Source: Sphingomonas sp. DG1-23
Lineage (GTDB): Bacteria; Pseudomonadota; Alphaproteobacteria; Sphingomonadales; Sphingomonadaceae
Length of the DNA stretch: 64,000 nucleotides
Assembly (NCBI RefSeq): GCF_030730875.1
Contig: NZ_JAVAMA010000013.1
Location: forward strand, 62,001-126,000
Direction of reading: 5' to 3'
The notes beneath the pieces were generated by a model. The model saw only the letters and a list, made by a program, of their open reading frames with translations. It searched no databases and was not told the DNA's origin. Each line of letters opens with the position of its first letter. The first letter of the stretch is position 1. A program made the translations under genes and the position numbers. This document shows positions 4,168 to 64,000 of this stretch, one piece after another.

Positions 4168-4169
4168 TT

Positions 4170-4271
4170 CCCCTTCCGCTTGCGGGAGGGGTTAAGGGAG
4201 GGGCTGGCCTCTTCACGATACTTCGTAATATTGGCACGTCCTTCCCCGACCCCTCCCGCAAGCGGAAGGGG
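4170..4271. repeat. Palindromic repeat between convergent genes
   Basis: Perfect 22-base terminal inverted repeats, CCCCTTCCGCTTGCGGGAGG plus GG on the left and its complement on the right, enclose about 58 bases. The element begins 3 bases after the gtrB-like stop and ends 22 bases before the methyltransferase stop on the other strand. It could fold into a strong stem in either transcript and serve as a bidirectional terminator; no U-run follows, so that is inference. Confidence 0.75.
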
Positions 4272-4293
4272 AGCGCGTGGGGCACGTTTCGCG

Positions 4294-20296: not shown

Positions 20297-20527
20297 TCAG
20301 CCCTTGGCGGAGAGGATCAGCAAGAGCAGCGCGATGATCCCGATCGCCACGGCCTGGAGCAGGATGCGCTGCTGCATCAATTTGTTCGAGCGCAGCGCGC
20401 GTTCGCTCGGGCCTTCGCCTTCGAGATCGCTGGTGGTGGTCTGGGCCATGTTGACCAGACCCTTGATGAGCACGAAGACCACCGCGAGCATCGCGGCGAG
20501 GAGCAAGGCGGCGAGGAAGAAGGTCAT
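20297..20527 (-). CDS. HIG1-domain twin-transmembrane protein
   Basis: A 76-residue protein with two membrane helices (LAALLLAAMLAVVFVLIKGL and LLQAVAIGIIALLLLILS) joined by a polar loop. The loop end ALRSNKLMQQRILLQ is the bacterial form of the HIG1 motif. Related proteins in alphaproteobacteria and mitochondria associate with respiratory complexes, mostly cytochrome oxidase; a role here is inference. It starts 9 bases after the gluQ stop and probably shares its transcript. Confidence 0.8.
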   Translation of the reverse strand: MTFFLAALLLAAMLAVVFVLIKGLVNMAQTTTSDLEGEGPSERALRSNKLMQQRILLQAVAIGIIALLLLILSAKG

Positions 20528-20536
20528 CGCGACTCT

Positions 20537-21508
20537 CTACGCCTTTGCCGACGCGAAGCCAACCGGAAGCAGACCCTGGCGGAGCCGGTCGGCGAGCGCG
20601 GGGCCGTCTTCGCCGGCAAGCCGCATCGCCTCGAGCGTCGGTGCGCCGTGGCGCTTGGCGAGGCGCCGGCCGTCGGGGCCGAGCAGCAGGTCATGGTGGC
20701 GATATTCGGGGATCGGCAGATCGAGCAGCGCCTGGAGCAGGCGGTGGACATGGGTCGCCGCGAACAGATCCTTGCCGCGGACGACATGGGTGATGCCCTG
20801 CGCGGCGTCGTCGACGGTGACGGCGAGATGGTAGGAGGCGGGGGCGTCCTTGCGGGCGAGGACGACGTCGCCGTGCGAGAGGGGATCGGCGCGGATCTTG
20901 CCGGCGAGGGCGTCGTTCCAGATTAGCTCCTCCCCGAGCTTGTCTCGGGGAGGGGGACCATCGCGAAGTGATGGTGGAGGGGCTGCCGGCGTAGCCGGCG
21001 AGCTTCGCCCGCCGCCCCTCCACCAGCCTGCGGCTGGTCCCCCTCCCCGAGCGAGCTCGGGGAGGAATTGCAGAGCGGCCTCCACATCCAGCCGCCAGCT
21101 GTGAGGGCGGGACAGGTCCGGCGCGTCGAGCCCCCGGCAAGTGCCCGGATAGAGCGTCCCCTCCGGCCCGTGCGGGGCGGAGAGGCTGGCGGCGATGTCG
21201 GCGCGGGTGCAGAAGCAGGGATAGAGCAGGCCCATGCCGCGCAGCCGATCGAGCGCCGCCTGATAGCGGTCGAGCCGCTGCGACTGGAAGGTCACCGGGC
21301 CGTCCCAGCCGAGCCCGAGCCATTCCAGATCGCGCTGGATCGCCGCGACATGTTCGGGGCGGCTGCGTGTGCCGTCGATATCCTCGATGCGCAGGCTGAA
21401 GCGGCCGCTGGTGGCGCGCGCGAAATCATGCGCCCGGATCGCCGAAAAGGCGTGGCCGAGATGGAGCCGCCCGGTCGGGCTCGGCGCGAATCGGGTGTGC
21501 ACAACCAT
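20537..21508 (-). CDS. gluQ: Glutamyl-queuosine tRNA(Asp) synthetase with in-frame insertion
   Basis: A 323-residue truncated GluRS-like enzyme that attaches glutamate to queuosine-34 of tRNA-Asp. TRFAPSPTGRLHLGHAFSAI is the HIGH region; YPCFCTRADI and YPGTCRG carry the zinc-type Cys; VVRGKDLFAATHVHRLLQAL and the KRHGAPT block (KMSKS equivalent) follow. Between DVEAAL and WNDALAGKIRAD there are about 48 extra residues rich in Gly, Pro and Arg, coded by a palindromic element also found at 63.8 kb. Family members I recall are near 280-300 residues, so the insertion explains the excess. The frame is open throughout; activity is not assured. The ATG before VVHTRF is used. Confidence 0.9.
   Translation of the reverse strand: MVVHTRFAPSPTGRLHLGHAFSAIRAHDFARATSGRFSLRIEDIDGTRSRPEHVAAIQRDLEWLGLGWDGPVTFQSQRLDRYQAALDRLRGMGLLYPCFCTRADIAASLSAPHGPEGTLYPGTCRGLDAPDLSRPHSWRLDVEAALQFLPELARGGGPAAGWWRGGGRSSPATPAAPPPSLRDGPPPRDKLGEELIWNDALAGKIRADPLSHGDVVLARKDAPASYHLAVTVDDAAQGITHVVRGKDLFAATHVHRLLQALLDLPIPEYRHHDLLLGPDGRRLAKRHGAPTLEAMRLAGEDGPALADRLRQGLLPVGFASAKA
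20927..21070. repeat. 144-bp palindromic element inside gluQ
   Basis: Terminal arms CTCCTCCCCGAGCT and its near complement AGCTCGGGGAGGAATTG enclose nested palindromes, with GGTGGAGGGGC facing GCCCCTCCACC and CCAGCCTGCGGCTGG as an inner hairpin. The outer thirds match the element at 63779-63919 almost base for base; the middle differs. Its length is a multiple of three and all its codons are open in the gluQ frame. The short copy at 26344-26378 has the same ends. Confidence 0.85.
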
Positions 21509-21604
21509 CAAACCGGCCCTTGACCGCGAGTCGCGGCATATGCTGTCATGCGCCCGTCACCATTCCCGGCCAGGGAGCGGGGGCCGCAACAGGTGAGGGA
21601 GCGC

Positions 21605-22171
21605 ATGTATCATCCCGATCTGATCCGCCATCCCGATGGTTGCCCCGCGCTCGTCCTCAATGCCGATTACACGCCGCTCAGCTATTATCCGCTCAGCGTC
21701 TGGCCATGGCAGACCGCGATAAAAGCCCTGTTCCTCGATCGGGTCGACGTGGTCTCCTATTACGAACGCGAGGTCCGAAGTCCCAGCGCGAGGCTGAAGC
21801 TTCCTTCGGTCATCGCGCTCAAACAATATGTCAGACCTTCCCAATTTCCTGCCTTCACGCGCTTCAACCTGTTTCTCCGCGACAAATTCTCCTGCCAATA
21901 TTGCGGGACCCAGCGCGACCTCACCTTCGATCACGTCGTTCCCCGCGCCCAGGGCGGGCGCACCACCTGGGAAAATGTCGCGACTGCCTGCGCGCCGTGC
22001 AACCTCAAAAAGGGCGGACGCACACCCAGAGAGGCGGCGATGCCGCTCCATATCGAGCCGATCCGCCCGACCAGCTGGCAGCTGCAGGAGCATGGCCGGC
22101 GCTTCCCGCCGCACTATCTCCACCAGACCTGGCGCGACTGGCTCTATTGGGACGTCGAGCTCGAAGCCTGA
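21605..22171 (+). CDS. HNH endonuclease family protein
   Basis: A 188-residue protein with an HNH nuclease domain in the middle. The zinc-ribbon CQYCGTQRDLTFDHVVPRAQ supplies the first two Cys and the catalytic His, ENVATACAPCNLKKGGRTP the Asn and second Cys pair. The N-terminal part (LVLNADYTPLSYYPLSVWPW) is the usual extension of the chromosomal HNH family in alphaproteobacteria. GAGGGAG lies upstream of the chosen ATG. No phage or intein genes surround it, so it looks like a resident gene; its role is unknown. Divergent from gluQ. Confidence 0.9.
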   Translation: MYHPDLIRHPDGCPALVLNADYTPLSYYPLSVWPWQTAIKALFLDRVDVVSYYEREVRSPSARLKLPSVIALKQYVRPSQFPAFTRFNLFLRDKFSCQYCGTQRDLTFDHVVPRAQGGRTTWENVATACAPCNLKKGGRTPREAAMPLHIEPIRPTSWQLQEHGRRFPPHYLHQTWRDWLYWDVELEA

Positions 22172-26343: not shown

Positions 26344-26378
26344 CAATTCCTTCCCGAGACCAGCTCGGGGAGGAATTG
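26344..26378. repeat. Short palindromic element directly before EamA start
   Basis: CAATTCCTTCCCGAG and CTCGGGGAGGAATTG form a near-perfect palindrome around a short centre. The ends equal those of the long elements in gluQ and at 63.8 kb. The ATG of the transporter follows without a gap, and GGGGAGGA inside the right arm is the only Shine-Dalgarno sequence available. Confidence 0.8.
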
Positions 26379-27296
26379 ATGTCGGACCAGCCACCGCCGC
26401 AATCCGCCCGCCTCTCGATCCTGATCCCCTTCCTCGTCGTCACGCTGATCTGGGGATCGACGTGGATCGTGATCCGCGACCAGCTCTCGGTGGTGCCGCC
26501 GAGCTGGTCGGTGAGCTACCGCTTCGTCGTTGCAGGAATCGTGATCCTCGGCTGGGGGCTGGTCCGGGGCGATTCGCTCAAGCTCGATGCGCGCGGCTGG
26601 GGCTTTGCCGTCGCGCTCGGATTCGCGCAGTTCGTGCTCAACTTCAACTTCGTCTACCGCGCCGAGCAGCACATCACGTCGGGCGTGGTGGCAATCGTCT
26701 ATGCGCTGCTGCTGGTGCCCAACGCGATCCTCGCGCGGGTGTTTCTCGGGCAATTGATGGGACGCCAGCTGCTGATCGGATCGGCGGTGGCGATGGCCGG
26801 CGTGGCGTTGCTGTTCCTCCACGAGGCGCGGCTGAGCGACGCCGGGCCCGAAGCGGCATTGATCGGGATCGGGATCGCCTTGCTCGGCGTGCTCTCGGCC
26901 TCGGTCGCCAATGTCATGCAGGCGACGAAGACCGCCAAGGCATATCCGATGGCGACGATCCTCGGCTGGGCGATGCTGAGCGGCGCGGCGATCGACGCCG
27001 TTTTCGCCTGGACGACCGTCGGCCCGCCGGTGATCGAGATGCGCTGGGGCTATGTGTTGGGGACGCTGTATCTCGGGGCGCTCGGATCGGCGCTGGCCTT
27101 CACCATCTATTTCCAGCTGATCCGCACGATCGGCCCGGCCAAGGCGGCCTATACCAGCGTGCTGATCCCGGTGATCGCGATGCTGCTCTCGACGCTCTAC
27201 GAGGGCTATCGCTGGTCGCTGCTGGCGGTGGCGGGGGCGGTGCTGGTGCTGATCGGGCTGGTGCTGGCACTCAAGGCGCGCAGGCCCAACCGGTAA
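26379..27296 (+). CDS. EamA/DMT superfamily transporter
   Basis: A 305-residue inner-membrane protein with ten predicted helices in two EamA repeats. The first repeat has VVTLIWGSTWIVIRDQLSVV; the second ends YFQLIRTIGPAKAAYTSVLI followed by a Glu helix, the usual motif. DMT proteins export amino acids or metabolites; the substrate is unknown. The threonine aldolase gene just upstream makes an amino-acid role conceivable. Start and ribosome-binding site are defined by the palindromic element. The last 91 bases overlap the convergent epimerase gene. Confidence 0.88.
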   Translation: MSDQPPPQSARLSILIPFLVVTLIWGSTWIVIRDQLSVVPPSWSVSYRFVVAGIVILGWGLVRGDSLKLDARGWGFAVALGFAQFVLNFNFVYRAEQHITSGVVAIVYALLLVPNAILARVFLGQLMGRQLLIGSAVAMAGVALLFLHEARLSDAGPEAALIGIGIALLGVLSASVANVMQATKTAKAYPMATILGWAMLSGAAIDAVFAWTTVGPPVIEMRWGYVLGTLYLGALGSALAFTIYFQLIRTIGPAKAAYTSVLIPVIAMLLSTLYEGYRWSLLAVAGAVLVLIGLVLALKARRPNR

Positions 27297-28061: not shown

Positions 28062-28138
28062 GTGCTCCTGCGAGAGCAGGAGCCCAGGATCGCGAGCAAA
28101 TCCCTTTGGGCCCTGGGCTCCTGCTTTCGCAGGCGCAC
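28062..28138. repeat. GTGCTCCTGC palindromic repeat, copy 1
   Basis: GTGCTCCTGCGAGAGCAGGA and GCTCCTGCTTTCGCAGGCGC arms, each itself a small hairpin, flank a variable centre. Two closely related copies lie at 43398 and 59244. This copy separates an M28 peptidase 3' end from the epimerase start on the same strand. Confidence 0.85.
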
Positions 28139-28159
28139 TGCTCGCTCGCTTGCTGAAGC

Positions 28160-29803
28160 CTAGCGCGCGCCGGTGCCACCGAAGCGCGTCCCGAAGAAAT
28201 CGCCCTTCATCCAGCCCGGCCGCGCATCGGCGTCGGCGATCGCGCGCGCGGCGGCATAGTTCACGCGGGTGAACTTCACGGCGGCGGCCCAGTCGATCGG
28301 CAACGCCAGATCGTCCGAGGGCTTGTGGTAGTGATTGGCGAGGAAGGCCTGCTGCGCCGCCGCGCCCGGGCCGCCTGGGCCGGTGTCGATCGATACCGCG
28401 GGGATCCCCGCCTGGACGAAGCTGTAATGATCCGAGCGGACGAAGAACATCTCCTCGGGCGCGGGATCGGGCACGACCTTCAATCCCTCGGCGGCCGCCG
28501 CAGTGGCATAGACCGCGCCGAGGCTCGAGCGCTCGCCGCCGAGCACGACGATATCCTGCATCGCGAAAGTGAGGATCGGCATGTCGAGATTGATGTCGGC
28601 GATCAGGCTGCCCCGCGGTACCCCGGGATGCGCGGCGAAATAGCTCGATCCGACCAGCCCCTTTTCCTCGGCGGTGACCGCGACGAACAGGATCGACCGG
28701 CGCGGCGGCTTGCCCGATGCCCGAAAAGCGCGCGCGACCTCGAGCATGGTTCCGACGCCGACGGCATTGTCCATCGCGCCGTTATAGATGGCGTCGCCTT
28801 TCTCGGGTTCGCCGATGCCGACATGATCGAGATGCGCAGTGAGCACGAGATACTCGCCGCGCAGCGCCGGATCGGACCCCTCGAGCAGCCCGACGACGTT
28901 GCTGCTGCGGCTGGCGCGGACCTCGGTCTTCGCCGCGAGCGCGAGCGTGCCGACCAGGGGGCCGGTGGGGAGACGGGTGCCGCGGCGTTCGGCGGCGAGC
29001 ACGTCACGCCACTTGATCCGCGATCCGGCGAACAATTTCTCGGCGCCGGCCTGCCCGACATAGCCGACCACCGGCGCGCCCGGGGCGATCATGTGCGCCT
29101 TGCCGTCGTGGCCGATCCATGTGGTGCGCTCATAATCGTAATAGGGCGCCATCGCCTCGAGCGGGAATTCGCCGCGGCGCTCGAGCGATTCGAGGATGAT
29201 CACGGCCTTGGCGCCGCGCGCCTCGGCAAGCCGGGCCTTTTGGTCGTCGTCGCCGAGATGCGCGGCGACTTCGTCGGGAAGCCCGGCGGGGACCCCGGCA
29301 TAGAGTGCGACGATCTTGCCGCGCACGTCGAGCCCGCGATAATCGTCGCGCTTGCCCTCGGGATAGACGAGGCCGTAGCCGGCGAAAACCACCCCGCCCG
29401 AGGCCCGGAATTCCGGCGTCGCCGGCACGCCCAGATTGACGAAATCGATCCCGAACTGGAGCGGGATCGCACCGCCGCGAATGAGCGTCCATTTCGCCTT
29501 TTCGGCGGGCTTGTAGGTGGCGAGCCCGACCGGCTGGAACCAATTGCCCTGGGCGCCGGGCTTCAGCCCCGTCGCGAGCATCTGCGCCGCGACATATTCT
29601 GCGGCCACGTCATAGGCATGCGTTCCCGCCTCGCGTCCGCGCAGCGAATCGTCGGCAAGGAACTGGACATGCGCCTTGAGCGCCGCCTGTTCGGGCGGGA
29701 GTTGCTGCGCACCTGCGGGGGAGGCGCACAGCAGGGCGGCAAGCATGATCCCCCTCCCTTTCAGGGAGGGGGAGACGAAGGAGGAGGCGCGTCCGCGGGT
29801 CAT
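28160..29803 (-). CDS. Secreted M28 family metallopeptidase, copy 1
   Basis: About 547 residues. The zinc-site motifs of M28 aminopeptidases are complete: LTAHLDHVG (His, Asp), GAMDNAVG (bridging Asp), TAEEKGLVG (catalytic Glu pair), INLDMPIL (Asp) and NHYHKPSDD (His). A protease-associated insert lies in the first half. The chosen ATG overlaps the stop of the upstream paralogue (ATGA) and gives a basic leader before LAALLCASPAGA; an ATG 19 codons later has a stronger ribosome-binding site, supplied by a hairpin. Last of three tandem paralogues on this strand. Confidence 0.9.
   Translation of the reverse strand: MTRGRASSFVSPSLKGRGIMLAALLCASPAGAQQLPPEQAALKAHVQFLADDSLRGREAGTHAYDVAAEYVAAQMLATGLKPGAQGNWFQPVGLATYKPAEKAKWTLIRGGAIPLQFGIDFVNLGVPATPEFRASGGVVFAGYGLVYPEGKRDDYRGLDVRGKIVALYAGVPAGLPDEVAAHLGDDDQKARLAEARGAKAVIILESLERRGEFPLEAMAPYYDYERTTWIGHDGKAHMIAPGAPVVGYVGQAGAEKLFAGSRIKWRDVLAAERRGTRLPTGPLVGTLALAAKTEVRASRSSNVVGLLEGSDPALRGEYLVLTAHLDHVGIGEPEKGDAIYNGAMDNAVGVGTMLEVARAFRASGKPPRRSILFVAVTAEEKGLVGSSYFAAHPGVPRGSLIADINLDMPILTFAMQDIVVLGGERSSLGAVYATAAAAEGLKVVPDPAPEEMFFVRSDHYSFVQAGIPAVSIDTGPGGPGAAAQQAFLANHYHKPSDDLALPIDWAAAVKFTRVNYAAARAIADADARPGWMKGDFFGTRFGGTGAR
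29750..29772. repeat. Hairpin at the M28 copy-1 start
   Basis: On the gene strand CCCCCTCCCT-GAA-AGGGAGGGGG is a perfect hairpin with 10-bp arms. It lies 3 bases before an internal ATG of the M28 gene, so its right arm would be both Shine-Dalgarno sequence and stem. If the upstream ATG is used, it is translated as part of SPSLKGRG. Confidence 0.8.
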
Positions 29804-31407
29804 TTCGCGCCCGGACCGCCGTACAGCGTTCCGAAGAAATCGCCCTTGTTCCATAACGGACGCTGATCGGCATCCGCCAGCGCGCGGGCGATGGCATAAT
29901 TGAGCTTCACGAAGCGAACGCCCTGGCCGAAATCGATCAAGCCGATTTCGTCCGAAGGCTGGTGGTAATGCTTCTCGCCGAAGGCGTCGATCGCCGCCTT
30001 GCCCGGGCCGGCGGGGCCGGGCTCGAGCGACACCGCGGGAATGCCGGCGCGGACGAAGCTGTAATGGTCCGAACGCACGAAGCTGGCCTGCTCGGGCGCG
30101 GGATCGGGAGTGAGCGCGAGCCCTTCGGCCCTGGCGACCGCCGCGACCGTCGGCCCGATGCTGGTGCGATCGGCGCCGTAGACCACCAGATCCTCGAACC
30201 TGTAGGTCAGCACCGGCATGTCGAGATTGACGTCGGCGACGATGCTGCCCTTGGGCACGGTCGGGTTGGCGGCGAAATAGTCCGAGCCGACGAGCCCCTT
30301 TTCCTCGGCGGTGACCGCGACGAACAGGATCGAACGGCGCGGGCGCTTGCCGGATGCGACGAACGCCCTGGCGACTTCGAGCATCGCCGCGGTGCCGACG
30401 GCATTGTCCATCGCGCCGTTGTAGATCGTGTCGCCCCTCGCGTCGGGCTTGCCCACGCCGACATGGTCGAGATGGGCGGAGATCACGACATATTCGTTCT
30501 TGAGCGCGGGATTCGAGCCTTCGAGCAGGCCGACGACATTGTTGGCGCCGAGCGTCTTGATCTCGGTGTTGGCGGTGCCTTGCGCGGTGACGCCGAGCGG
30601 GCCGGTGGGGAGCTTCTTGCCGGCCTTGTCGGCGGCGAGGATTTCGGACCATTTGAGCTTCGCGCCAGCGAACAGCTTCTCGGCGCCGGCCATGCTCAGA
30701 TACGCGAAAGCGGGGGCGCTCGGCCCCTCCAGATGCGCGCGCCCATCGGGATCGGCCCAGGTCATTGCCGAACTGTTCCAATAGCCGATGCTCGCCTCGA
30801 ACGGGAAGATCGCGTGGCGGGTGGTCCCTTCGATCAGGATCACCCCGATCGCGCCATGTTCGGCGGCATTCTTCGCCTGCTCCTCGGGCTGGCCGAGATG
30901 CGCACGGACTTCGCTCTGGAGCGCATGCGGGGCGTCGCGCAGGATCGCGACGATCTTCCCCTTCACGTCGAGGCCCTTGTAATCGTCATGGCCGGTGGCG
31001 CGATCGGTGACGCCATAGCCGGCGAACACCACCGGTGCCGACAGCGCGAGCTTCGCCTCGCGGGCGTTCGAGCGGGCGACGAAGTCCTTGCCCCATTCGA
31101 GCGGAGTCGCCGTCGCGCCGCGAGCGAGCGTCAACGTACCGTGATCGGCGCCCTTGAACGAGACCAAAGGCACCGGCTGGAGCCACGCGCCATTGGGCGC
31201 GCCGGGCGCGAGCCCCGCGGCGAGCATCTGCGCGGCGACATATTGCTCGGCGATCGCCAGCTCGGGCGAGCCGGTATCGCGGCCGCGCATCGCGTCCGAG
31301 GCGAGGAAGGCGACATGCGCCTTTAGCGCGGCTTCCGGCGGCGTCAGCTCCTGCGCGATCGCGGGGGTGGCGAAGAGGAGAGGGAGGAGGATCGAGGACT
31401 TGCGCAA
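29800..31407 (-). CDS. Secreted M28 family metallopeptidase, copy 2
   Basis: About 535 residues, close in sequence to both neighbours. Zinc motifs SAHLDHVGVG, GAMDNAVGTA, TAEEKGLVG and KHYHQPSDE are intact. A TTG start is chosen because it gives the signal peptide (M)RKSSILLPLLFATPAIAQ with GGAG about 8 bases upstream; the open frame further upstream runs through a palindromic repeat and reads as low-complexity sequence. Likely a periplasmic or secreted aminopeptidase, perhaps active on peptides from outside. The stop overlaps the start of copy 1. Confidence 0.9.
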   Translation of the reverse strand: MRKSSILLPLLFATPAIAQELTPPEAALKAHVAFLASDAMRGRDTGSPELAIAEQYVAAQMLAAGLAPGAPNGAWLQPVPLVSFKGADHGTLTLARGATATPLEWGKDFVARSNAREAKLALSAPVVFAGYGVTDRATGHDDYKGLDVKGKIVAILRDAPHALQSEVRAHLGQPEEQAKNAAEHGAIGVILIEGTTRHAIFPFEASIGYWNSSAMTWADPDGRAHLEGPSAPAFAYLSMAGAEKLFAGAKLKWSEILAADKAGKKLPTGPLGVTAQGTANTEIKTLGANNVVGLLEGSNPALKNEYVVISAHLDHVGVGKPDARGDTIYNGAMDNAVGTAAMLEVARAFVASGKRPRRSILFVAVTAEEKGLVGSDYFAANPTVPKGSIVADVNLDMPVLTYRFEDLVVYGADRTSIGPTVAAVARAEGLALTPDPAPEQASFVRSDHYSFVRAGIPAVSLEPGPAGPGKAAIDAFGEKHYHQPSDEIGLIDFGQGVRFVKLNYAIARALADADQRPLWNKGDFFGTLYGGPGAK

Positions 31408-31420
31408 CGCGGTGGCTCCG

Positions 31421-31563
31421 AGCTCCCCTCCCTGCAAGGGAGGGGCTGGGGTGGGGTCGCGGCAGCCGGGGCTCGATGCCCCGGCTGCCGCCCGATTGCG
31501 GAGCAAGGAGCGCGGCTGCGCCGCGCACCCACCCCGAACCCCTCCCTTGCAAGGAGGGGCTTA
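31421..31563. repeat. Branched palindromic repeat between M28 copies 2 and 3
   Basis: Left arm CCCCTCCCTGCAAGGGAGGG with GGTGGGGT and right arm ACCCACCCC with CCCTCCCTTGCAAGGAGGGG pair across the element. Inside, GGCAGCCGGGGC-TCGAT-GCCCCGGCTGCC makes a separate hairpin at 31461-31490. It forms the leader region of copy 2 and fills most of the 163-base gap. Confidence 0.8.
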
Positions 31564-31570
31564 TTTCAGG

Positions 31571-33256
31571 TCACTTCTCCATCGGTCCGCCGAACAGGGT
31601 GCCGAAGAAATCGCCTTTCTTCCACATCGGCTGCTGATCGGCATCGGCGATCTCGCGGGCGATGCGATAATTGACGTCGACGAAGCGCGCACCCGATTCC
31701 CAGTCGATCATGGGCTGCTGGACCAGATCGTCCGACGGCTGGTGATAATGGGTGCGGAGGAACGCCTCGGTCGCCGCCTTGCCGGGGCCCTTCTCGCCCG
31801 GCCACAGGAACACCGAGGGGATGCCCTGCTGGACGAAGCGATAATGGTCCGAGCGGACGAAGAACGCCTCGTCGGGGCGCGGATCGCCGCCCATGCCGAC
31901 GCCGATCTGCGCCGCGGCGCGCTGGACGATCTCGCCGAGAGTAGAATGCGCCGCGCCGAACGGGGTGACGTCCTCGAACTTGTAGGTGAGGATCGGCATG
32001 TCGAGATTGACGTCGGCGACGAGGTTTTCCTTCGGCACGGTCGGGTTGTGCGCGAAATAGTCGGCGCCGACCAGGCCCTTCTCCTCGGCAGTGACCGCGA
32101 GGAAAAGGATCGAGCGGCGCGGCGGCTTGCCCGAGGTCTTGAAGCGCTTCGCCTCCTCGATCAGCGAGGCGATCCCGACGGCATTGTCCATCGCGCCGTT
32201 ATAGATCGTGTCGCCCTTCGCATCGGCCTTGCCGACGCCGACATGGTCGAGATGCGCCGAGAGCACGACGACTTCCTTGCCGATCGCCGGGTCGCTGCCG
32301 GGCAGCATGCCGGCGACATTGTAGCTGGTGATCGCGGTGTTGGCGGTGTTGAGCGTCACCGACAGCGTGACCGGCAGCTGGATCGCCTTGAAGGTCGCGT
32401 TGTCGTCCTCGGCGAGCCTGGCGACGGTCGCCCATCTGACCCTGGCGCCGTCGAACAGTTTCGCCGCGGTGGCGGTGCTCAGCATGCCGAGCCCGGGGGC
32501 GGTCGGCGTCGGGAGATGGCCGCTGCCATCGGCCTCGGCCCAGGTGACGCGCGGACGGTCCCAATTGGCCGCGAACGAACCGAAGGGATAATTGCCCCGC
32601 CCGGTGCGCGGCGATTCGAGGGTGATGTAGCCGATTGCGCCCTTCCGCATCGCGATCTCGGCCTTGGTGGCGGCGCTGCTGAAATGCGCGCGTTCCTCGG
32701 CGGGGAATTTGGACGGTGCGCCGCCGAAAAAGGCGACGATCTTGCCCCTGACGTCGACGCCCTTGTAATCGTCGCGGCCGAGCCCGGCGATGCCATAGCC
32801 GACGAACACCAGCGGCGCACTGAGCTGAAAGGCGGTCTTGTCGGGGTTGCCGGCGGGAACATAGTCGGTGCCGAAGACGAGGCTGACCGGCTGACCGCCC
32901 TTGCGGGTGAGCGTCATGCTGCCCTTGTCGGCAGGCTTGTAGCTGATCAGCGGCACCTTCTGGAGATACGAACCGTCATCCCCGGCGGGGCGCAGACCCT
33001 GCGCATAGAATTGCGACGCGACATATTGCGCGGCGATGTCATATTCGGGGCTGCCCGCCTCGCGCCCGCGCAGCTGATCCGAGGCGAGGAACAGGATATG
33101 GCTCTTGAGCGCCGCCTGATCGGCGGGGAGCTCGGCGTTGAGCAGGGCGTTGGTCTGGGCGGGAGTCGGCGCGGGCGTGGGGGCCGGAGCCTGCTGCGCC
33201 GGCGCCGGAGCGGCGGTCAGCGCGATCAGGCCGAGCGGCGCAATCAGTCGAAACAT
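31571..33256 (-). CDS. Secreted M28 family metallopeptidase, copy 3
   Basis: A 561-residue M28 peptidase. Signal peptide MFRLIAPLGLIALTAAPAPA is followed by a Pro/Ala/Thr linker (APTPAPTPAQ). Zinc motifs SAHLDHVGVG, GAMDNAVGIA, TAEEKGLVG, VNLDMPIL and THYHQPSDD are all present. It is the first of the three tandem copies and is divergent from pepN across 107 bases, so peptide-handling genes are clustered and may share control. Length is typical for the PA-domain-containing M28 subgroup. Confidence 0.92.
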   Translation of the reverse strand: MFRLIAPLGLIALTAAPAPAQQAPAPTPAPTPAQTNALLNAELPADQAALKSHILFLASDQLRGREAGSPEYDIAAQYVASQFYAQGLRPAGDDGSYLQKVPLISYKPADKGSMTLTRKGGQPVSLVFGTDYVPAGNPDKTAFQLSAPLVFVGYGIAGLGRDDYKGVDVRGKIVAFFGGAPSKFPAEERAHFSSAATKAEIAMRKGAIGYITLESPRTGRGNYPFGSFAANWDRPRVTWAEADGSGHLPTPTAPGLGMLSTATAAKLFDGARVRWATVARLAEDDNATFKAIQLPVTLSVTLNTANTAITSYNVAGMLPGSDPAIGKEVVVLSAHLDHVGVGKADAKGDTIYNGAMDNAVGIASLIEEAKRFKTSGKPPRRSILFLAVTAEEKGLVGADYFAHNPTVPKENLVADVNLDMPILTYKFEDVTPFGAAHSTLGEIVQRAAAQIGVGMGGDPRPDEAFFVRSDHYRFVQQGIPSVFLWPGEKGPGKAATEAFLRTHYHQPSDDLVQQPMIDWESGARFVDVNYRIAREIADADQQPMWKKGDFFGTLFGGPMEK

Positions 33257-36012: not shown

Positions 36013-36192
36013 CGTCACCCCGGACTTGTTCCGGGGTCCACTCCTCCACGGGTCCATTCGACTCGACTCTTACCCTGACCTCTCCGACAGCCCGGCTTGG
36101 CCCGGTGGACCCCGGAACAAGTCCGGGGTGACGGATTGATTGGTTTCGGATTGCGCCTTCGCTTGAGATCCCGGCTTTCGCCGGGATGACGG
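36013..36192. repeat. Paired palindromic repeats between pepN and phoD
   Basis: CGTCACCCCGGACTTGTTCC and GGAACAAGTCCGGGGTGACG are 20-base outer arms enclosing about 80 bases (36013-36133). A second hairpin, ATCCCGGCTTTCGCCGGGAT, follows at 36168-36187 just before the phoD stop on the other strand. The 236-base gap between these convergent genes holds nothing else that I can see. Confidence 0.8.
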
Positions 36193-43397: not shown

Positions 43398-43475
43398 GTG
43401 CTCCTGCGGAAGCAGGAGCCCCGAGTCACGGGCGGTGCGCTTGCGCGCCTGGGGCTCCTGCTTTCGCAGGAGCAC
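43398..43475. repeat. GTGCTCCTGC palindromic repeat, copy 2
   Basis: GTGCTCCTGCGGAAGCAGGA at the left and TCCTGCTTTCGCAGGAGCAC at the right. The ends are near identical to the copies at 28062 and 59244; the centre differs. It sits between the convergent 3' ends of the GT4 and TonB receptor genes. Confidence 0.88.
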
Positions 43476-43490
43476 TGCGGCTCTCCCGCC

Positions 43491-49761: not shown

Positions 49762-49832
49762 CCGTTCGTTTCGAGCGAAGTCGAGAAACGCATCCCGAGA
49801 TCCCGTTTCTCGACTTCGCTCGAAACGAACGG
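49762..49832. repeat. Long perfect hairpin between pyrE and pdxJ
   Basis: CCGTTCGTTTCGAGCGAAGT and CGAGAAACG on the left are fully complementary to CGTTTCTCG and ACTTCGCTCGAAACGAACGG on the right: 29-bp arms and a 13-base loop. It lies 18 bases after the pyrE stop and 8 bases before the pdxJ ATG, so transcripts passing through would carry it right at the pdxJ ribosome-binding site. Confidence 0.88.
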
Positions 49833-54946: not shown

Positions 54947-55476
54947 CCCGCAACCTGCGCACTGCGCTGCTCGCCGGGCTCGGCGTCTGCACGATGACCG
55001 GCGTGGGCTTCGCCAGCGTGCCGCTCTACCGGATGTTCTGCGAAGTGACCGGGCTGAACGGCACCACCCAGCGCGGGCTGCGCGCGCCGGGCACCACCGG
55101 CGACAAGATCACGGTGGCGTTCGACAGCAATGTCAGCCCGAAGCTGCCCTGGACCTTCACCCCCGAGCGCCGTGCCGACACGATCGACGTGGGCGGGCGC
55201 GACATGGCGTTCTTCAAGGCGAAGAATCTTTCGGACAAGCCGGTCACCGGCACCGCGACGTTCAACGTCACCCCTGCCGCGGCGGGCAAATATTTCACCA
55301 AGATCCAGTGCTTCTGCTTCACCCAGCAGACGCTTCAGCCGGGCGAGGAGGTCCGCATGCCGGTGATCTTCTATGTCGACCCGGCGATCGAGAAGGATCC
55401 CGACGCGCGCGACATTCAGGAAATCACGCTTTCCTACACATTTTACCCGGTAGATTCCGGCAAGACTGCAAGCTGA
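54943..55476 (+). CDS. ctaG: Cytochrome c oxidase assembly protein CtaG (Cox11-like)
   Basis: A 177-residue copper chaperone that delivers Cu to the CuB site of subunit I. One N-terminal helix (TALLAGLGVCTMTGVGFASV) anchors an immunoglobulin-like periplasmic domain. YRMFCEVTGLNGTTQRG and the copper motif KIQCFCFTQQTL (CxC) are intact, and DPDARDIQEITLSYTFYP matches the conserved end. Start overlaps the upstream small ORF by 4 bases. A 271-bp inverted-repeat element begins at its stop codon. Confidence 0.96.
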   Translation: MTRNLRTALLAGLGVCTMTGVGFASVPLYRMFCEVTGLNGTTQRGLRAPGTTGDKITVAFDSNVSPKLPWTFTPERRADTIDVGGRDMAFFKAKNLSDKPVTGTATFNVTPAAAGKYFTKIQCFCFTQQTLQPGEEVRMPVIFYVDPAIEKDPDARDIQEITLSYTFYPVDSGKTAS

Positions 55477-55746
55477 GGGCTCGAATCCGCTTCCCGCAAT
55501 GGTCGGGACGGAGGCGAGTTTGCCCGCTGGGACGGAGCGACGAGTGCGCGATGCCAGAGCATCGTGATCGACGAGCGACGCGCTTCAGCGGGCAAATTCG
55601 CCCCGCCGCTTCGCGGTCGTCCGTCGCAGGCCACCGGACGGCGTCAGTCGGCTTGCCCGGGCATTCCAGCCCGGTCGGCGCCGCCTGCCTTGCCGATGAC
55701 CTGCGACGGACGATCACGACCGTTGCGGGAAGCGGATTCGAGCCCT
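55476..55746. mobile_element. MITE-like element between ctaG and ctaE
   Basis: 30-bp terminal inverted repeats match at 29 of 30 positions (left begins AGGGCTCGAATCCGCTTCCC). Two nested palindromes lie inside: one with GCGAGTTTGCCCGCTG against CAGCGGGCAAATTCGC, one with GTCCGTCGCAGG against CCTGCGACGGAC. There is no open frame of its own on the sense strand that I would trust. It fills almost all of the 306-base ctaG-ctaE gap, the largest non-coding gap in the window. No target-site duplication is obvious, so mobility is inferred from shape alone. Confidence 0.65.
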
Positions 55747-59243: not shown

Positions 59244-59322
59244 GTGCTCCTGCGAAAGCAGGAGCCCAAGGTCACGCGCGAATCGGGCCTGTGGCTCTGG
59301 GCTCCTGCTTTCGCAGGAGCAC
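59244..59322. repeat. GTGCTCCTGC palindromic repeat, copy 3
   Basis: GTGCTCCTGCGAAAGCAGGA at the left and TCCTGCTTTCGCAGGAGCAC at the right; near identical to copies at 28062 and 43398 in both arms. It separates thrC from the methyltransferase gene on the same strand and could act as terminator or RNA-stability element. Confidence 0.88.
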
Positions 59323-59343
59323 AAGGCTGGATAAGGGAGGCGC

Positions 59344-63765: not shown

Positions 63766-63778
63766 GGGGGACAATCCA

Positions 63779-63919
63779 GTTCCTCCCCGAGCTTGTCTCG
63801 GGGAGGGGGACTGCCGCGCAGCGGTGGTGGAGGGGCGCCGTCGAAGACGGCGGCTACGCCGCCGCCCCTCCACCAGCCTGCGGCTGGTCCCCCTCCCCCA
63901 GCGAGCTGGGGGAGGAATT
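63779..63919. repeat. Palindromic element before the ABC permease
   Basis: The outer parts (TTCCTCCCCGAGCTTGTCTC at the left, and GCCTGCGGCTGGTCCCCCTC toward the right) match the element inside gluQ. GCCGTCGAAGACGGC is a centre not shared with it. Its right end GGGGAGGAATT stops exactly where the permease GTG begins. Confidence 0.88.
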
Positions 63920-64000
63920 GTGAGCGCCGCCTTCTCCCGGGTGCCCGAATTGCTCGCCGAGCATCTGCTGCTGGCGCTCTCGGCGCTGCTGCTCGGGCTG
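63920..64000 (+). CDS. ABC transporter permease, partial (OpuCB-like)
   Basis: 27 codons are visible before the right edge: a GTG start, SAAFSRVPELLAEHLLL and ALSALLLGL. The pattern (short polar N-terminus, then EHL-rich first helix) fits the permease of glycine betaine/choline importers. GGAGGA from the preceding palindromic element lies 4 bases before the GTG, which fixes the start. The ATPase of the same system is just upstream. Confidence 0.7.
   Translation, partial: MSAAFSRVPELLAEHLLLALSALLLGL

Follow-up and report, generated by a model that had tools for sequence, protein, structure and literature searches.

The gluQ locus and its insert

The window analysed here is a stretch of 64,000 nucleotides from the genome of Sphingomonas sp. 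DG1-23 (4.59 Mb), and positions refer to this window unless stated otherwise. Its minus strand holds a stop-free ORF of 324 aa (20537-21511) for which the best GluQRS model is NCBIfam NF004315, matched with an E-value of 1.1e-97 and split into two stretches. Solved GluRS/GluQRS chains align to the ORF on each side of the gap. Residues H17/G19/H20, C99/C101/Y121/C125 and RLAKR (283-287), which we take to be the signature and zinc motifs, are invariant (alignment A1).

The gap is occupied by a palindromic insert of 144-147 bp, here called a family A element. The initial annotation had placed an element in frame within gluQ, between two conserved blocks, and its coordinates are correct: positions 20927-21070 (144 nt) correspond to GluQRS residues 148-195 (48 aa), no stop is introduced, and both the split model match and the solved structures flank the insert. 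The palindrome is equally clear, as positions 20920-21076 folded as single-stranded DNA gave -68.9 kcal/mol (z -10.5), and none of 200 dinucleotide shuffles was as stable. No Rfam match at the gathering threshold was found over 20400-21700. The features of the locus and the further family A copies in the window are as follows.

20537-21511, minus strand: gluQ, tRNA glutamyl-Q(34) synthetase GluQRS, 324 aa, with insert (ORF, NF004315, conserved residues)
20924-21070, minus strand: family A palindromic element (fold, repeats in own genome, missing from most relatives by match score)
20928-20953: outer (end) hairpin, TCCTCCCCGAGC...CTCGGGGAGG (sequence; such a unit stands alone at L038, L039, L040, L043 and L045)
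20954-20983: inner arm bearing its own small hairpin (sequence and fold)
20984-21013: variable centre of the element (length and sequence differ among copies)
21014-21041: second inner arm, the inverted counterpart of the first (sequence and fold)
21042-21066: second end hairpin, CCTCCCCGAGC...CTCGGGGAGGA, then ATT (sequence, comparison with other copies)
26345-26378: solo end palindrome of family A, with GGAGG ahead of an ATG at 26379 (sequence comparison)
63778-63920: family A copy flanked by two reading frames; the outer GGAGG lies 4 nt ahead of a GTG at 63920 (sequence comparison)

An AlphaFold2 model of GluQRS (42 aligned sequences) had a mean pLDDT of 82, with most residues outside the insert above 85. 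Within the insert, residues 161-190 scored 43-50 per block of ten, and confidence was also low at residues 110-123 and the C-terminus. In the model, a helix (143-154) extends into the first residues of the insert, and a strand (197-200) comes after it. Foldseek searches with the model recovered GluRS and the Escherichia coli GluQRS structures 4a91 and 1nzj. On this prediction, the enzyme is probably intact and the insert forms a disordered bulge on it.

Family A in the Sphingomonas sp. DG1-23 genome

The ends and arms of the element had been described as common to copies at 63.8 and 26.3 kb, and both copies are real. The first aligns with the gluQ element over two stretches, of 62 nt (97 % identity) and 59 nt (88 %), and the second, a solo end palindrome, is 80 % identical over 30 nt. 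Across the whole genome the element gave 73 match rows, a number that includes both strands, so that one copy often accounts for two rows. It therefore belongs to a repeated family, as had been proposed. About 40 places were followed, one of which, in L042, was not recovered by a second BLAST search.

There are 26 near-full copies, which measure 130-169 bp between fixed ends (the longest exceed 150 bp) and have a G+C content of 74 %. They share a plan consisting of an end hairpin, an inner arm with a small hairpin and a variable centre, followed by the inverted repeat of this plan, and terminal inverted repeats are evident from folding and from comparison of copies. The end unit (29-33 bp) also stands alone. 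On average, 5.3 of the 6 reading frames are open in a near-full copy vs 3.7 in dinucleotide shuffles. However, the 26 copies averaged, which include those in gluQ and in an imuB-like gene, are related, and the open frames are thus a property of one family rather than 26 independent tests. As near-full copies are mostly free of stops, they are easily read through.

Codon statistics flagged four of the approximately 40 places as in frame, two of which, in gluQ and in the imuB-like gene, were upheld on reading; copies that break a gene would escape this test. The other two (L019 and L033) were rejected, as both sit upstream of reading frames. The suggestion of a coding-compatible family is hence borne out in part: a second gene carries an in-frame copy, but most copies are apparently not intragenic.

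No target-site duplication was found for the 26 copies with k = 2-9, and flank matching was near that of a cross-pair control (the right end of copy L036 was misplaced in this comparison). Insertion as such is therefore not directly seen. The Y1 transposase associated with REPs (Y1_Tnp) had no match in this genome. Among 295 genomes of the same genus, it was matched in 33, whereas family A was matched (E<=1e-3) in 259.

The outward end of family A, GGGGAGGAATT, often lies directly before a start codon, as if providing the ribosome-binding site. This was seen at 63911-63922 and 26369-26381, and elsewhere in the genome at L002, L004, L018, L025, L027, L043 and L045. For 56 family A ends, a strong ATG follows the GGAGG 7 times at 3-12 nt and 7 times (6 ends) at 13-22 nt, compared with 0-5 times per 10-nt bin at 23-112 nt. 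The enrichment is modest, and plain proximity to genes may account for it.

Other repeats were also noted in the window. A further compound palindrome, of the GTGCTCCTGCGAAAGCAGGAGCCC type, is present in three copies (28062-28141, 43398-43478 and 59244-59325). Inverted repeats that are strong but differ in sequence, and that may represent more palindromic families, lie at 4169-4272, 36013-36133, 49762-49832 and 55476-55746. Three related stretches of about 1.7 kb in tandem (28158-33130) are probably paralogous genes.

Inserts at gluQ in related genomes

The 295 genomes were searched with the insert-bearing protein and then with an insert-less relative as query. A gluQ-level match was found in 287, and the remaining eight, with only a weaker, gltX-like match (E 1e-32 to 1e-39 with the insert-less query), were left out. 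A long insert in the GluQRS loop is present in 43 of the 287 (41 spanned in full among the matches listed, together with G227 and G088). The other 244 lack a long insert by match score, which was the sole basis for about 195 of them, including the divergent genes of G241 (2.4e-94) and a small number of other genomes. Most homologues are thus without the 48 residues, and it is not the case that all close homologues carry them in a form lacking the palindrome. Neither the matches listed nor the loci that were read showed a long insert elsewhere in gluQ.

The frame is kept in 42 of the 43 long inserts, the exception being G088, where it is shifted. This bias contrasts with the lengths of the near-full family A copies in the Sphingomonas sp. 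DG1-23 genome, which fall evenly into the three phases (8/9/9). The encoded peptides are rich in Gly, Pro and Arg. Frame breaks without a long insert were found in the gluQ of G026 and G177, the break in G259 comes after the loop, and in G273 the gene is cut by the contig end.

In a family-wide search, 28 of 397 genomes, some of the same genus, passed E<=1e-60. Of the 23 new loci that this search yielded, two (L259 and L260) have in-frame GluQRS loops of 198-210 nt. Of 80 named records, mostly of Sphingomonas, 76 could be parsed, and the 16 with long gluQ loops, including Sphingobium sp. AP50, are all in frame, though several of these duplicate loops from the 295 genomes and are not additional species. 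Records of Sphingomonas naasensis (L147) and S. gei (L146) are among those with inserts. Other repeat-like peptides, for example of the PSPLVGEGWGEG and PFGLSLSK types, were noted in the GluQRS loop of L259, L260, L281, L273 and L220, all outside the genus; these were recognized by peptide, with a fold energy for L220 only.

Different palindrome families in one loop

The 43 inserts were sorted into families A (22, plus the variant in G288), B (10, including G109), C (5) and D (3), leaving those of G130 and G142. Assignment was by pattern for 36 inserts, by eye for six (G252, G114, G279, G288, G130 and G142) and by peptide for G109. In an all-against-all BLAST comparison, A and B separate only at E 1e-8, a level at which family C splits into four pieces (one piece at 0.01). 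The best A-B match, between G109 and G185, is 84 % identical over 44 nt (E 2.7e-8), and by this comparison the two families are distantly linked or have exchanged sequence. We note that, given this link, switches between A and B need not be separate insertions. Families C and D gave nothing better than E 0.03 against A or B, and the G130 insert matches D over a short stretch of 19 nt (E 7e-4). Judged by such matches, the gluQ loop is occupied by at least three groups (A/B, C and D) that show no detectable relation to one another.

Nearly all are palindromic. The fold z-score was -3.3 or lower for 41 of 42 parsed inserts, the exception being G142 (z 0.2), which has no palindrome; control stretches of 160 nt from the N-terminal flank had a mean z of +0.5 (range -1.9 to 3.3). 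Families B and D are also dispersed, with 14-54 match rows in each of six genomes and 39-84 in each of four, respectively, counting both strands and including the genome of the window among those counted. The copies of families A, B and D that were examined are compound palindromes of about 115-170 bp.

Turnover, scars and the source of the copy in the window

A gluQ tree was built from the two flanks only (248 columns) for 89 of the 91 loci fetched from the 295 genomes (G109 and G262 were not parsed), including 47 non-carriers. With A and B treated apart, parsimony gave at least 25 changes; there were 17 for presence or absence (short remnants scored as absent) and 14 among carriers. Merging A and B reduced these to 20 changes and 7 among carriers (5 without G130 and G142), and the A/B states alone required 6. 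These counts are indicative, because 23 of the 86 inner branches are starred. Two pairs of sisters carry different families: G051 (A) and G121 (B), with support of 100/79, and G264 (A) and G256 (B), with 100/67.

Loss was also seen. In G200, the sister of the carrier G011 (100/93), the element is reduced to the first ATCCTCCCCG and the last GAATTATGG, and the G200 loop reads as an in-frame deletion scar of the element present in G011. Short palindromic or end-like remnants were recognized by eye in G175, G163, G046, G225, G196, G111 and G235.

When 24 copies from its own genome were compared, the insert in the window was closest to copy L002 (91.4 % identity), which was judged to be intergenic. 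Five more, including the imuB-like copy, were 80.7-87.9 % identical. The best of the 41 other parsed gluQ inserts reached 80.3 %, and for six carriers the identity of the coding flanks was 80-87 %. The closer match to an own copy supports a recent origin of this insert from the local repeat pool. Inheritance from a shared gluQ insert was considered for the copy in the window and judged unlikely on the same identities.

A second gene with in-frame palindromes

Locus L008, which lies outside the window (G000:C4:166526-168490), is an ORF that we presume to be imuB-like; it matches DNA polymerase IV models weakly (best 40 bits vs a curated cut-off of 381). Two palindromes are read in frame within it, one from family A (loop 1) and one from family C (loop 2), and each of these loops varies across the genus. 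Among 16 of the 30 loci fetched, loop 1 encodes family A type peptides in nine, a short one in G121 and other repeat-like peptides in G096, G125 and G031, with none obvious in G088, G072 and G075. In loop 2, CGTC-type peptides are present in seven of the 16 and not in the other nine. When 20 stretches from these loops were folded, 19 had z-scores of -6.6 to -15.9, and G125 loop 1 had -1.3. As far as these comparisons go, the pattern found at gluQ recurs in the imuB-like gene.

Relationship to known palindromic elements

The nearest parallels are the palindromic elements of Rickettsia (RPE), described in the parts of the sources available to us as dispersed repeats of about 105-150 bp that belong to several families, many of them in frame in conserved genes (PMC10969869, PMC2229807, PMC3733652). 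As far as the available sections go, the stem-loop families recovered in PMC2267715 include RPE-4 to -7. Family A is likewise a dispersed palindrome of comparable size found in frame, in gluQ and the imuB-like gene, though it is likened to RPE by architecture and not by sequence. It differs in its G+C content of 74 %, in its occurrence in a genus outside Rickettsia, and in the use of the same loop by different families.

Bacterial MITEs (ERIC/RU-1, YPAL/RU-2, Correia and RUP) have terminal inverted repeats and stable hairpins and include some in-frame fusions, according to the portions of PMC2229807 available. Family A shares the terminal inverted repeats and stable hairpins, but no target-site duplication was found for it.

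REPs are a further point of comparison. A REP unit measures 20-40 bp; the full family A element exceeds this, but the 29-33 bp end unit can stand alone. Family C gluQ inserts start with CGTCAC/T, which resembles CGTC-tagged REPs. In contrast, no GTAG/CGTC end tag is present in the copies of families A, B and D examined, and inspection of family A copies gave AATTCCTCC...GGAGGAATT as the ends. The 'E. lithoralis' and S. alaskensis named next are, we assume, an Erythrobacter and a Sphingopyxis, both of the order Sphingomonadales. In the sections available, PMC3733652 places REPs within tRNA synthetase and truB genes of 'E. lithoralis' and S. alaskensis, considers CGTC repeats of 'S. wittichi', and describes recB in two Xanthomonas species as hit at about one common site. 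The gluQ gene may be among those tRNA synthetase genes.

The statement in the initial annotation that no such element had been described for this group is consequently too strong, and in-frame palindromes are not new as such in this bacterial order, going by those sections. Among the papers listed for palindromic elements in sphingomonads, Rickettsia elements and GluQRS insertions, we found no description of family A or the gluQ site, nor of a site at which one family takes the place of another. The re-use of one site by different palindrome families looks new.

Origin and persistence of the inserts

We consider it likely that a non-autonomous palindrome of this genome entered the gluQ loop and is read in frame, and that a tolerant loop has been reused by different families over the history of the genus. 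A family A repeat would have been copied or moved from the repeat pool of its own genome into the loop. This movement within the genome would leave no target duplication and would sometimes end in genes, a mode of movement that we infer. Given an element that is G+C-rich and almost stop-free, and selection for in-frame outcomes, GluQRS would still be made and remain active, its catalytic domain enlarged by about 48 residues, probably disordered, that separate a helix from the strand after it. An insert would be retained in loops that can tolerate it, provided that it preserves the frame. The gluQ loop would be a tolerant 'safe harbour', occupied in turn by families A and B, C, D and perhaps others, which replaced one another, lost their palindrome, or shrank by deletion to short in-frame scars.

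A possible though less favoured account is that one or a few old insertions founded the site and that the sequences that followed came through ectopic gene conversion or interspecies exchange of gluQ segments instead of fresh insertion. By eye, the ends of most A and B inserts share a phase and differ in position by no more than a few codons, and this agrees with such an account, as does the 44-nt stretch common to A and B. Among 18 pairs of inserts compared, those of G041 and G256 are 92 % identical, whereas the coding flanks are 80-81 % identical; inserts more alike than their flanks fit exchange between species. The inserts of G146, G105 and G209 are likewise 85-89 % identical to that of G192, though these genomes are scattered on the tree. 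However, the lack of a detectable relation of C and D to A/B argues against this account. For the insert in the window, the closer match to own-genome copies than to any gluQ insert argues against inheritance or exchange, and is still compatible with conversion from an own copy.

Targeted integration, in which common machinery recognizes a local DNA feature at the gluQ site and the imuB loops, so that target choice and not only tolerance would be at work, appears improbable to us. All the long gluQ inserts that were read lie within one stretch of a few codons, and families A and B have the same architecture (end hairpin and inner hairpin, inverted), both of which speak for such machinery. Against this, target duplication was not found for family A copies, and the Y1 transposase is matched in few of the genomes and not in that of the window; no common mobilizer is known.

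The open frame kept in many lineages and the Gly/Pro/Arg-rich residues could also indicate that the insert has been domesticated and benefits GluQRS, for instance as an Arg/Gly/Pro segment that binds RNA. This is very doubtful, since different families, and hence different peptides, take each other's place, the insert was deleted in at least one lineage, and the AlphaFold2 model leaves it unstructured. That gluQ is a decaying pseudogene with a frame left open by chance is scarcely credible despite the high G+C content, which keeps frames open, and the broken gluQ of a few relatives (G026, G177 and G259, and G088 with an insert), given that 42 of the 43 inserts keep the frame, that conserved residues are retained on both sides and that the core is modelled with high confidence.

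Entry of own-genome palindromes into a tolerant loop therefore remains our preferred reading. Tolerance, rather than targeting, would be the lowest-cost account of the shared site, with conversion or exchange covering part of the turnover. A more speculative extension, which we hold to be unlikely, is that the GluQRS and ImuB-like loops are long-lived landing sites where families arrive, displace one another and leave in-frame scars via common, putative hairpin-recognizing machinery. If so, the protein sequence of such loops would be a record of past genomic repeats.

Implications

Gene models in these genomes contain repeat-derived residues, and this should serve as a warning to those who use them. 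The gluQ loop offers a set of replicated natural experiments, in which the same loop holds different peptides and empty and scarred relatives are available, that bear on whether peptides born from DNA repeats are neutral, harmful or useful. The effect of such peptides is termed still unexplored for Rickettsia in the accessible part of a review (PMC10969869). With palindromes that would have repeatedly entered and left a defined position of a protein in a widespread genus, the GluQRS loop may serve as a natural test case for repetitive DNA becoming protein.
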